DNA of 38,608 nt from NCBI GenBank assembly GCA_021782015.1, contig JAJXVS010000002.1, forward strand, positions 1-38,608, written 5' to 3'. This document shows positions 6,310 to 10,610 of this stretch, piece by piece. Origin of the DNA: a bacterium. GTDB taxonomy: Bacteria > Spirochaetota > Spirochaetia > Treponematales > Rectinemataceae. The stretch's first letter is position 1. Every line of letters begins with the position of its first letter. The notes beneath the pieces are model-generated. The model had not been told where the DNA came from. It ran no database searches and worked only from the letters and a program-made list of their open reading frames with translations. Position numbers and translations under genes: made by a program.

Positions 6310-7086
6310 ATGGGCTGGCCCTTCGACGACTGGAACCTCTTCCTTCTCATCGCCGTCCGGATTCTCGCGTTGATCGAAGTGGCCCCCCTCCTTTCCGGCG
6401 ACGGGGTTCCCCAGGTGGCCAAGGTCGGCCTCGCGGGCTTCGCCGCCGTCTCCGTGTTCCCTTCGGTGAAGGCCCAGGGCTACCCGATCCCCGCGGACGG
6501 GGCGACCTACGCCCTCCTTGTCGTCGGGGAGGCGATGATCGGCCTCATCATCGGCTTTTTCCTCAACGCCCTCTATTCGGCCTTCCAGGCAGCCGGCCAG
6601 CTCTTCTCGCTCCAGATCGGCTTTTCGGCGATGGAGACCTACGATCCGCTCGCCCAGGTCGAGCTCCCCCTCGTGGGCCAGTTCCTCAACCTCGTCGCGA
6701 TGTTCGTCTTCCTCGTGGTCGACGGCTTCAACAAGCTCTTCGTCATCGGCGTACAGGGCTCCTTCCATGCGATGCGGGCCATCGACCTCGTGACGCGGCG
6801 GAACGACATCGTCGACTTCCTCTCGCGGGCCGTCGGGGCCCTCATTCAGCAAAGCCTTATCCTCGCAATGCCGATATTGGGTACACTGTTCATCATGACC
6901 GTTGCGCTCGGACTTCTCTCGAAGGCGGCTCCCCAGATGAACCTCCTCACCGAGGGCTATCCGATCACCCTCACCGCCGCGTGGCTCATCATGATCGCAA
7001 CTATGCCGTTTATTGCCGAGGCCTTCTCCCGCATGATAGACAACGGTTTCGGCGACCTCGGCCGGATGCTCGGGGGGGTCAGATGA
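6310..7086 (+). CDS. fliR: Flagellar export gate protein FliR
   Basis: A 258-residue polytopic membrane protein that completes the FliPQR gate. Conserved features are RILALIEVAPLLSG near the N-terminus, the FQAAGQLFSLQIGFSAMETYDP stretch in the middle, and a C-terminal helix pair. The stop overlaps the start of flhB (ATGA at 7083-7086). Confidence 0.94.
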   Translation: MGWPFDDWNLFLLIAVRILALIEVAPLLSGDGVPQVAKVGLAGFAAVSVFPSVKAQGYPIPADGATYALLVVGEAMIGLIIGFFLNALYSAFQAAGQLFSLQIGFSAMETYDPLAQVELPLVGQFLNLVAMFVFLVVDGFNKLFVIGVQGSFHAMRAIDLVTRRNDIVDFLSRAVGALIQQSLILAMPILGTLFIMTVALGLLSKAAPQMNLLTEGYPITLTAAWLIMIATMPFIAEAFSRMIDNGFGDLGRMLGGVR

Positions 7087-8495
7087 GGGCGGCCGAAGGC
7101 GACCCCCGCGACAGTAGTCGCGTCGCGAACCACTGCGATGTTCGCTCCGATGTCGCGAACATTGATTTTAATTGGTTCGTCGCGAACCACTGCGATGTTC
7201 GCTCCGATGTCGCGACCATTGATTTGCAGTGGTTCGCGGCGGAGGACGAGGGGAGGACGGAGGAGCCTTCCGAGTACAAGATCCGCAAGGCCCGCGAGGA
7301 GGGGCGCGTCGCGAAGAGCCAGGAGCTCGTCGGGGCTCTCGGTCTCCTCATCCCGGCCTCGGTGCTGGTCATCCTGGCGCCGTCGATGCTGCGGACCCTG
7401 CGTGAAATGATTCTCTACTATTTCATGATCGCCACCGAGACGGACATCACGACGGACGGAGGGGTGGTCGCCGCCAGTTTTGTCGCCTATTTCGCGCGTC
7501 TGGCCCTTCCCCTCGGCATCGCGGGCATGGTGTCCGGGATCGCCTCAAATATGCTCCAGGTGGGCTTCGTGTTCTCGGCCAAGCCCATCACTCCGGATTT
7601 TTCGCGCATCGTGCCCCGCATCGGCCAGTGGCTCAAGAAGAGCATGTTCTCCGCCGAAGGGATCTTCAATCTCGCTAAGACCATCGCCAAGGTCGCCATC
7701 GTGGCGGCCGTTTCGTGGGTGACGATTTCGAGCCAATTGGGAAAGCTTCTTTCTTCCATCACCACCTCGTTCTGGGTGGCCGTCGCCTTCGTCGGCGGTC
7801 TGGCGATGCGCCTGGTCATCGAGGTCGCGGTCCTCCTCCTCGTGCTTTCGGTGCCCGACTTCCTGTTCCAGAGGCGGCAGTACCGGGAATCCCTCAAGAT
7901 GTCCCGTGAAGAAGTCAAGGAAGAGCGCAAGATGATGGAGGGCGACCCCCTCGTCAAGAACAGGCTCCGGCAAAGGATGCAGGAGCTCCTGGCGAAGAAC
8001 ATGGCGGCCAACGTGCCCAAGGCCGATGTCGTCATCGCCAACCCGACGCACTATGCCGTTGCCCTCGAATGGAACCGGGAGGCGATGGCCGCGCCCGTTG
8101 TCACGGCCAAGGGCGTCGACGACATGGCCCTCCGCATACGCCGAATAGCCGAGGAAAACGCCGTGCCGGTCGTCGAAAACCGCCCCCTGGCCCGCGCCCT
8201 CTACGCGGAGGTCCAGATCGGCGATGCCATCCCCGAGAAATACTATCAGGCGATCGCCGCCGTCCTCGCCTCCGTCTACTCGGCGAGCGGCGAAGCCCAA
8301 GCCATCCGCGGAGCGGCGGCGCAAGGCTCCCGCGACGCCTCGGCTTCGGAAGGGGACGGGTCGGCGGGGGCTTCGGCTGGGGCCGTGTCGGCGGGGGCCG
8401 TGTCGGCTGGGGCCGTGTCGGCTGGGGCCGCGCGCGAGACCGCCGGCCTGGCCGATGGCCCCGGTCGGCGCGGTTCGATGAGGGCAGAGGTATGA
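7083..8495 (+). CDS. flhB: Flagellar export switch protein FlhB with duplicated N-terminus and repeat tail
   Basis: FlhB sets the switch from rod/hook to filament export by cleaving itself at NPTH, seen here at residues 320-323. The product is 470 residues, about 100 longer than usual. ATG 7083 overlaps the fliR stop; the longer track start lies inside fliR. The extra length has two sources. Residues 14-51 are two 19-residue copies, the second running into the normal treponemal start IDLQWFAAEDEGRTEEP. A tail of about 80 residues after the core contains GAVSA repeats. Four membrane helices and the linker KMMEGDPLVKNRLRQRMQEL look intact, so the protein is probably functional. Whether the true start lies after the repeat cannot be decided; no better ribosome site is visible there. 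Confidence 0.94.
   Translation: MRAAEGDPRDSSRVANHCDVRSDVANIDFNWFVANHCDVRSDVATIDLQWFAAEDEGRTEEPSEYKIRKAREEGRVAKSQELVGALGLLIPASVLVILAPSMLRTLREMILYYFMIATETDITTDGGVVAASFVAYFARLALPLGIAGMVSGIASNMLQVGFVFSAKPITPDFSRIVPRIGQWLKKSMFSAEGIFNLAKTIAKVAIVAAVSWVTISSQLGKLLSSITTSFWVAVAFVGGLAMRLVIEVAVLLLVLSVPDFLFQRRQYRESLKMSREEVKEERKMMEGDPLVKNRLRQRMQELLAKNMAANVPKADVVIANPTHYAVALEWNREAMAAPVVTAKGVDDMALRIRRIAEENAVPVVENRPLARALYAEVQIGDAIPEKYYQAIAAVLASVYSASGEAQAIRGAAAQGSRDASASEGDGSAGASAGAVSAGAVSAGAVSAGAARETAGLADGPGRRGSMRAEV
7122..7235 (+). repeat. 57-bp tandem duplication at the 5' end of flhB
   Basis: Two 57-bp units (7122-7178, 7179-7235) differ at only a few bases and encode VANHCDVRSDVANIDFNWF and VANHCDVRSDVATIDLQWF. 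Each unit begins with CGCGAACCACTGC, the exact reverse complement of GCAGTGGTTCGCG, which encodes the conserved LQWFA just after the array. The unit junction can fold as TGGTTCG-TCG-CGAACCA. The frame is kept. Confidence 0.95.
8379..8432 (+). repeat. 15-bp tandem repeat in the 3' end of flhB
   Basis: Three units of GGGGCCGTGTCGGCN (8379-8393, 8394-8408, 8409-8423) and a partial fourth encode successive GAVSA pentapeptides in the C-terminal tail of FlhB, beyond its conserved domain. Confidence 0.95.
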
Positions 8496-8516
8496 TGAAC
8501 ATGTCCGGAGGCCACC

Positions 8517-10610
8517 ATGGCTGACACTACACAGAGGGCCCAGTTCGGCAATCTCCTGGCCAATCCCTCGGACCTCGCGGTCGCGGGGGGCACGATCTCG
8601 GTGATCCTGATGATCATGATCCCCGTGCCCACCATCCTCCTCGACGCCCTTCTCGCCTTCAACCTCACCGTTTCGATACTCATAATACTTATTGTTCTCT
8701 ACACGCGGAAGGCCACCGATTTCTCCATCTTCCCGACGATGCTTCTCGTGACCACCGTCTTCGGGCTGGCGCTCAACATCTCCTCGACGCGCCTCATCCT
8801 CTCCAAGGGCTCGAACTTTGACGGCCACCTCATCCGCGCCTTCGCGAGCTTCGTAGTGGGCACAGGCGGCGCCGAGGGCCTGGTCATTGGCTTCATAATA
8901 TTCATTGTGATCATCGCGGTGCAGGCCATTGTCATCACGAAGGGTGCGACCCGCATCGCCGAGGTGGCGGCCCGCTTCACCCTGGACGGACTGCCGGGCA
9001 AGCAGATGGCCATCGAGGCCGAGTACAATTCCGGCTCGATCTCCGAGGAAGAGGCGGTCAAGCGCAAGTCCGAGGTCCAGCGCGAGGTCGATTTCTACGG
9101 CCAGATGGACGGCGCCTCGAAATTCATCTCGGGAAACGTCAAGATCGCGATATTCATTTCGGCCGTCAACCTGGTCGCCGGATTCATCATCGGGATGGTC
9201 CTCCACCACGAGGATTTCAACACGGCGATCACCACCTATACCTCGCTCACGATCGGCGAGGGGCTGCTTGCCCAGCTTCCCGCCCTCCTCGTCTCGACGG
9301 CGACCGGCATAATTGTGACGAGAGCCAATGCGCAGGGGACCTTCGGCGCCGAGGTGGCGACCCAGTTCTCGCAGAACTCGCGGGTCTACCTCATCGCGGC
9401 GGCCGTGCTCGCCCTGATGTCGATCCTTCCCGGCTTTCCCTGGTACGTCCTCATCCCCATGGCGGCCGCCTTCGCCTTCGTGGGCTTCCGGCTCGCCCGC
9501 AAGGAGACGGTTGCGGCCGAGAAGGCCAAGGCCACGGCGGCCGGGCTTGGCCGCAAGGCCGAGGCGCCCTCGGACCTTTCGCCCGTCGTGCCCCTCGATC
9601 CCATCAGTCTGGAACTCGGCTACGGGTTGATTCCCCTCGTGGACAAGGACAAGGGCGCCGACCTCCTGGAGCGCATCACCCGCATCCGCAAGGAGACGGC
9701 CCTTGAGATGGGCCTCGTCGTCCCGCGAATCCGCATAATTGACAACATGCGTCTTGAACCCTCCGAATATTCCTTCAAGATAAAGGGTGTCCAGGTCGGC
9801 CGCGGCCTCATTCGCGTCGGGCTCTATCTCGCCATCAACCCCGGAGGCGTCTCGGAGGAGGTCCCCGGCGAGAAGACGAAGGACCCCACCTTCGGCCTTC
9901 CGGCCCTCTGGATCGCCGAGGAGCAGCGCGACCGCGCCGAACGCGCCGGCTACACGATCGTCGACGCGCCGAGCATCATCGCGACCCACCTGGCGGAACT
10001 CATCAAGCGGCACGCATCGGAGATCCTCGGGCGCCAGGAAGTGCAGTCGATCCTCGACACGCTGAAGAAGGACTACCCCGCCGTCGTGGAAGAGACTTCC
10101 AAGCGGCTCTCCCTCGGCGAAATCCAGAAGGTCCTCCAGGGACTCCTTCGGGAGCAGGTCTCGATCCGCAACATGGTGGCCATTCTCGAGACCCTCGCCG
10201 ATTACGCCGGCGTCACCAAGGACCCCGGCTTCCTCGTCGAAAAGGCCAGGCAGGCCCTGTCGCGGCAGATATGTCAGCAGTATTCGGACGATGACCGCAG
10301 CATCAGGGTGCTCACGGTCGAGCAGGGCCTCGAACAGAAGATCATCGATTCGCGCGTCGACCAGCCCGGCGGGGCCATTTCCGCCCTTGAGCCGGCCCTG
10401 CAGCGCCAATGGGTCAAGGCCCTCACCAAGGCCGTGCAGGCAGTCCAGCAAAAGGGCTGGTTCCCGATCGTCCTCTGCTCAGAGGCTGCGCGCGCCCTCG
10501 TAAAATCAAGTACTGAACGTGAGATACCCGACCTCGTCGTCCTGTCCGTCCCGGAAATCGTCGTGGACGCCAGGGTCGAGGCGGTCGGCGAAATAAGGCT
10601 GGAAGGGTGA
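8517..10610 (+). CDS. flhA: Flagellar export gate protein FlhA
   Basis: FlhA is the large nonameric gate subunit that receives chaperone-substrate complexes in its cytoplasmic ring. The 697 residues are normal: seven to eight membrane helices in the first half, with the conserved cytoplasmic loop (TKGATRIAEVAARFTLDGLPGKQMAIEAEYNSG), then a soluble domain with EVQSILDTLKKDYPAVVEE and LPDLVVLS-like segments. GGAGG precedes ATG 8517 by 7 nt. flhF follows after 4 bp. Confidence 0.96.
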   Translation: MADTTQRAQFGNLLANPSDLAVAGGTISVILMIMIPVPTILLDALLAFNLTVSILIILIVLYTRKATDFSIFPTMLLVTTVFGLALNISSTRLILSKGSNFDGHLIRAFASFVVGTGGAEGLVIGFIIFIVIIAVQAIVITKGATRIAEVAARFTLDGLPGKQMAIEAEYNSGSISEEEAVKRKSEVQREVDFYGQMDGASKFISGNVKIAIFISAVNLVAGFIIGMVLHHEDFNTAITTYTSLTIGEGLLAQLPALLVSTATGIIVTRANAQGTFGAEVATQFSQNSRVYLIAAAVLALMSILPGFPWYVLIPMAAAFAFVGFRLARKETVAAEKAKATAAGLGRKAEAPSDLSPVVPLDPISLELGYGLIPLVDKDKGADLLERITRIRKETALEMGLVVPRIRIIDNMRLEPSEYSFKIKGVQVGRGLIRVGLYLAINPGGVSEEVPGEKTKDPTFGLPALWIAEEQRDRAERAGYTIVDAPSIIATHLAELIKRHASEILGRQEVQSILDTLKKDYPAVVEETSKRLSLGEIQKVLQGLLREQVSIRNMVAILETLADYAGVTKDPGFLVEKARQALSRQICQQYSDDDRSIRVLTVEQGLEQKIIDSRVDQPGGAISALEPALQRQWVKALTKAVQAVQQKGWFPIVLCSEAARALVKSSTEREIPDLVVLSVPEIVVDARVEAVGEIRLEG

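Follow-up and report, generated by a model that had tools for sequence, protein, structure and literature searches.

Background

Prp is a cysteine protease that cuts the long form of L27 at LQFF^A; the structure of the Staphylococcus aureus enzyme points to the importance of a P3 Gln and a P1 Phe in the substrate, and catalytic roles have been described for its His22, Asp31 and Cys34 (PMC9405229). Members of this family (PF04327) act at the motif LQ(F/L/W)F^A on long L27 of S. aureus and on the capsid and scaffold proteins of phage 80alpha. In the L27 motif P2 is occupied by F or L; W at this position is listed for the FlhB proteins of T. pallidum and E. rectale, with T. pallidum FlhB appearing among the proposed Prp sites as IDLQWF^AAE (PMC9405229). 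Cleavage of FlhB by Prp was proposed by Wall et al.; as cited and tabulated by Hotinger et al. 2022 (PMC9405229), the proposal concerns the same substrate and the same LQWF^AAE as the locus described here, likewise pertains to spirochaetes without long L27, and draws on motif comparison. A literature search for LQFFA with FlhB, or for Prp with flagella, returned nothing beyond PMC9405229. The comparisons below bear on what Prp is for in bacteria with a short L27, where FlhB had been suggested by motif likeness only. FlhB as a Prp substrate having been proposed earlier (PMC9405229), what is novel here is the evidence from co-loss and the multiplied site; the leaderless FlhB of a Prp-less clade and the hypervariability of the leader likewise go beyond that proposal.

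The L27 system and FlhB are alike in that organisms lacking Prp have a protein that starts at the cut point. They differ in the substrate, in the leader, which spans 5-119 residues in spirochaete FlhB (range at 74 loci; median 30) as against about 9-15 in L27, and in the duplication of the site region at the present locus.

Palindromic DNA is tolerated inside protein-coding genes in the case of the Rickettsia palindromic elements (RPEs) and similar in-frame dispersed repeats. The repeat unit described below resembles the RPEs in being palindromic DNA read in frame, and is unlike them in having no other copy in its genome.

Results and discussion

A tandem duplication upstream of the conserved block of flhB

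In the window, by which we mean the whole stretch of 38,608 nucleotides that was analysed, flhB starts with the ATG at 7083, which forms an ATGA overlap with the stop codon of fliR. Its product matches TIGR00328 over residues 56-402 with 384 bits (cut-off 349.25), which makes it a member of that family. The features of the locus are:

6310-7086, plus strand: fliR, an open reading frame whose stop codon TGA (7084-7086) overlaps the flhB start
7070-7076, plus strand: G-run CTCGGGGGGGTCAGATGA, a candidate ribosome-binding site
7083-8495, plus strand: flhB, encoding a 470-residue precursor (NCBIfam TIGR00328)
7083-7235, plus strand: leader, a predicted propeptide of 51 residues (MRAAEG...IDLQWF), its position relative to fliR being conserved at 85 loci
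7121-7136, no strand assigned: inverted arm 1, complementary to 7226-7241
7122-7178, plus strand: repeat unit 1 in codon register, encoding VANHCDVRSDVANIDFNWF
7167-7178, plus strand: upstream copy of the predicted cut site, decayed to FNWF with V after it; its first two codons hold three of the four positions at which the units differ
7178-7193, no strand assigned: inverted arm 2, complementary to 7226-7241
7179-7235, plus strand: repeat unit 2 in codon register, encoding VANHCDVRSDVATIDLQWF
7224-7235, plus strand: intact predicted Prp site LQWF (motif of PMC9405229), the cut being expected between 7235 and 7236, LQWF^AAEDEG
7226-7241, no strand assigned: target arm over the LQWFA codons, partner of both inverted arms
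7236-8492, plus strand: predicted mature FlhB, first residues AAEDEGRTEEPSEYKIRKAREEGRVAKS, a conserved block in relatives

An earlier note on this DNA had described two near-identical 57-bp units at the start of flhB, each opening with an exact 13-nt inverted copy of the segment encoding LQWFA and together adding about 38 residues with two Cys, and on all these counts it was right. The units lie in tandem at 7121-7177 and 7178-7234, are identical at 53 of 57 positions (mismatches at 7159, 7169, 7170 and 7172), and precede the conserved block IDLQWFAAEDEGRTE, beginning 38 nt after the start codon. Both are in the flhB frame and contribute 2 x 19 residues with two Cys. The inverted arms measure 16 nt and are 94% complementary to their target, with a longest exact match of 13 nt, CGCGAACCACTGC. 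When up to 3 mismatches are allowed, the window contains two occurrences of a 19-mer taken from the unit, against an expectation of 0.02-0.06 from shuffling, and a chance origin of the repeat is excluded. In the 3.85-Mb assembly of the window's own genome this is the single matching place, which argues for a local event rather than a mobile element. A dispersed genomic repeat, and specifically an RPE-like dispersed palindromic element, of which further genomic copies would be expected, were rejected as candidates on the same count.

The predicted Prp site and the proposed fate of the leader

Immediately upstream of the conserved protein, LQWF^A at 7224-7238 agrees with the motif LQ(F/L/W)F^A. 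The sequence that bears this site reads IDLQWFAAEDEG, and its counterpart in the upstream unit is IDFNWFVANHC. Across all six frames of the whole genome LQWFA occurs once, in FlhB. The same genome encodes, beside rpmA, a Prp that scores above the Pfam cut-off, matches the S. aureus Prp structures 4peo and 7kld, and retains the catalytic residues H22, D31 and C34. L27 was ruled out as its substrate, as it is short in this genome and needs no cutting; the same short form was found in 31/31 of the L27 proteins checked beside spirochaete prp genes.

We propose that translation of flhB begins at ATG 7083, in coupling with that of fliR, and yields a precursor whose leader has 51 residues, and that Prp would cut this precursor after LQWF to give an FlhB starting AAEDEGRTE. 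The leader would then be discarded, so that almost any change in it could be tolerated that spares the frame and the last cut site. In such a leader, a 57-bp tandem duplication would have copied the leader end along with the cut site, after which the upstream copy would have decayed from LQWF^A to FNWF^V, leaving the last site as the only one expected to be cut. To this account as a whole, namely a leader removed by Prp and a duplication tolerated within it, we assign a probability of about 0.8. The anatomy of the locus, the conserved frame, the presence of Prp, the co-loss and the leaderless starts described below are direct observations, whereas cleavage by Prp, the lack of effect of the repeat and the way in which it arose are what we infer. 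The earlier note had seen in the repeat an alteration of a core export-gate protein. This is not sustained by the position of the segment, which lies upstream of the predicted cut in a leader that is probably removed; as Prp would normally remove the whole leader, the doubled segment should not reach the finished protein. Our account makes the precise prediction that the N-terminus of mature FlhB is AAEDEG.

Co-loss of Prp and FlhB and a clade with leaderless FlhB

The pairing of Prp with FlhB is open to an evolutionary test, for which we compared several hundred spirochaete genomes. Where flagella were lost, in the window's own family (f1) and in f13, Prp is gone too; in one clade that lost Prp yet retained flagella, the predicted cut is where FlhB begins. 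The Pfam model missed Prp in Borreliaceae and in the genomes G330, G347 and G015, and was by itself too weak to establish absence; for this reason, a profile of 17 sequences was employed. In family f1, Prp is missing from every FlhB-less genome (19/19), and 10 of the 11 that bear FlhB have a Pfam match for Prp, the eleventh (G015) having it at a contig end, where the more sensitive profile alone recovered it. Searches with the profile found Prp in 0/9 of the non-flagellated, FlhB-less genomes of f13.

Genus g25 includes, among the genomes checked, 20 that bear FlhB and are without Prp. Leaving out G308, in which FlhB begins at a contig end, the N-terminus begins with M-AAEDEG, M-AAEEEG or M-AADDEG at the predicted cut in 19/19 of those where it can be read, and 36/36 of the Prp-bearing genomes read from this genus keep both leader and motif, the latter being LQWF with one LKWF. 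The leaderless genomes form one Treponema-like clade (support 98/83), and accordingly stand for one evolutionary event, so that 19/19 is not to be taken as 19 independent trials. Arrival by deletion at the predicted mature N-terminus is nevertheless the outcome that the cleavage model predicts.

Loss of Prp was thus accompanied by loss of FlhB or of its leader in f1, in f13 and in the g25 clade, with exceptions. The leader is kept, with no Prp detected by the profile, in f41, f55 and f53 and in G410, G158, G123, G157, G220 and G206. The leaders of f41, f55 and f53 close with degenerate motifs (SIGLYF^AAEDEG and SLAMF^AAEDEG, for example), and G410, G158 and G123, with a good motif and no Prp found, may simply be incomplete genomes. 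Three incomplete drafts (G067, G073 and G350) have Prp, with FlhB not found. Many Borreliaceae were negative for Prp with the Pfam model; the profile found it in 8/8 of those tested, and their FlhB proteins keep a leader with the variant motif PLDFF^S or PLNFF^A/S.

Two sets of loci are recorded here as observations in their own right. Loci L193, L195, L203, L205, L207, L212 and L215-L218, from f41, f55 and f53, combine long leaders and a degenerate motif with no Prp found; in genus g133 an ATG directly precedes FAAEDEG. The genus g63 (G208, G245, G271 and G316) matches FlhB weakly, has an internal TAA in three of these matches and yielded no Prp; its flagellar genes are possibly decaying.

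Multiplied predicted cut sites

Most loci carry one site. Extra LQW copies are present in f1 leaders of the window, G010, G003, G004 and G005, and in the f4 leaders L027, L028 and L029, where there are two to four at a spacing of 23 residues; L037 and L074 have partial extra motifs at 12 and 11 residues, respectively. In G010, which belongs to another genus (loci L011/L042), the LQW copy lies at a spacing of exactly 57 nt (19 residues) and is accompanied by a VANHC segment as in the window, which implies that the arrangement is older than the genus or arose twice. The upstream copy of the window (FNWF^V, 7167-7178) is changed at P4, P3 and P1' and is no longer an intact site; only the last site is probably cut there.

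The extra copies might have been retained by selection, as a means of faster or staged cutting or as decoys that occupy Prp. Such copies do recur, in f1, f4, L037 and L074, and all copies in the three f4 genomes keep LQWF or IQWF. The copies of L027 differ mostly at synonymous positions in the motif (13 synonymous and 3 nonsynonymous changes) as against the linker (15 and 22), these being pairwise counts among copies that are not independent of one another. However, in f1 most upstream copies are damaged at P1 or P3 (FNWF in the window, LQWS, LQWP, LQWA), with only G005 keeping LQWFA; V rather than A follows the cut in most upstream copies, including those of f4; the upstream copies of L037 and L074 are without WF; and a single site is the rule. 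We regard such selection as unlikely: with intact copies in f4 and a decayed one in the window, it is possible for the former and unlikely for the latter. It is likewise unlikely that a multi-site Prp leader is functional in some spirochaetes, its copy number tuning the timing or rate of export-gate assembly. If this were true, Prp would serve the phylum (Spirochaetota) as a protease devoted to flagellar maturation.

The leader is read but hardly conserved

The leader could be measured at the 85 loci that allowed the fliR stop to be located. From this stop to LQWF there are 11 to 353 nt, and the frame is kept at 85/85 of these loci, with no in-frame stop in any leader. An NTGA overlap between the start codon and the fliR stop is seen at 74 of the 85; at the remaining 11, a start codon in frame is no more than about 10 nt from that stop. 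In leaders of at least 30 codons (n=37), stops interrupt the two other frames in 37/37 and 28/37 cases. The open frame and the conserved start thus indicate that the leader is read, though its length and sequence are not kept. An internal restart after the repeat was rejected: no in-frame ATG or GTG lies between 7083 and the conserved block, the sole in-frame alternative before that block is a TTG at 7224 inside the motif, and relatives keep the start position at the fliR stop.

Among pairs with a mature identity of at least 75%, the median identity is 78% for the mature N-terminus versus 33% for the aligned leader residues. The alignment of FlhB N-termini from relatives, which the earlier note had suggested, thus reveals no conserved length or sequence in the leader, and even the same-genus relative G001 has a short leader unrelated to that of the window. 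It has to be considered that the leader stays on FlhB, with the repeat forming a functional, Cys-bearing N-terminal extension of the export gate; the extension is, after all, open, in frame and, by its position, translated. This is quite improbable, given that the leaders of close relatives, including G001, share neither length nor sequence and that Prp-less relatives are leaderless and start at the same residue. Under removal by Prp, which we favour, the comparisons also account for how an export-gate gene can take up a 57-bp duplication without harm.

In some relatives the leader contains a dispersed CACRGAG-type hairpin, an RPE-like feature. Leaders L012, L013, L014, L027, L029 and L053 carry, in frame, a hairpin element built on the pattern ACCACRGAGNCACRGAG...CTCYGTGNCTCYGTGGT. 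By a pattern count in which a control pattern scores too, the repeat being periodic, this element has many copies in G002, G015, G037 and G075 and is absent from the genome of the window.

Origin and folding of the inverted segments

The DNA for LQWF-VANHC is nearly palindromic (CAGTGGTTCG TCG CGAACCACTG), as fold-back synthesis would make it. When 72 leaders were compared, f1 supplied all six of the best inverted matches to the motif. The position of the inverted segment relative to LQWF differs between genomes, and in the same-genus relative the inverted match is 8 nt and the fold has a z of +1.1. The earlier note had envisaged a template switch or a quasi-palindrome event followed by tandem duplication. 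Its in-frame tandem duplication with an inverted LQWF copy is well supported, and the recurrence in f1 is consistent with a fold-back or template switch; the VANHC segments, which are antisense to LQWF, are probably products of such a mechanism.

The same note had also expected the mRNA to form a strong hairpin over the translation start of flhB. The repeat does fold strongly (z -3.2; over a 130-nt stretch, z -4.4), and inverted motif copies are also present in five f1 relatives, as might be anticipated of a selected RNA hairpin controlling flhB translation. Yet the repeat begins no earlier than 38 nt past the ATG, and the start region (7040-7130) is no more stably folded than shuffled sequence (z -0.03) and pairs weakly with the repeat, so that the idea of a hairpin over the start was rejected. 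Moreover, in the relative from the same genus the inverted repeat is weak, its place with respect to LQWF varies from genome to genome, and outside f1 the 72 leaders offer no strong inverted match. Selection for a regulatory hairpin is hence very improbable. The variable position, the 8-nt match in the relative and the ordinary fold of the start region make a mutational by-product likelier. As for an assembly error behind the duplication, the draft does comprise 393 contigs; yet the two units differ by four substitutions, and G010, from a different genus, has the same 57-nt spacing with VANHC, which makes such an error extremely improbable.

Minor observations on flhB

The C-terminal tail of FlhB contains, at 8342-8430, a 15-bp tandem repeat (TCGGCTGGGGCCGTG) in 3.9 copies, encoding SAGAV repeats. 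On the minus strand, a 968-residue open frame (7545-10451) runs antisense to flhB and flhA and is most likely a by-product of the high G+C content.
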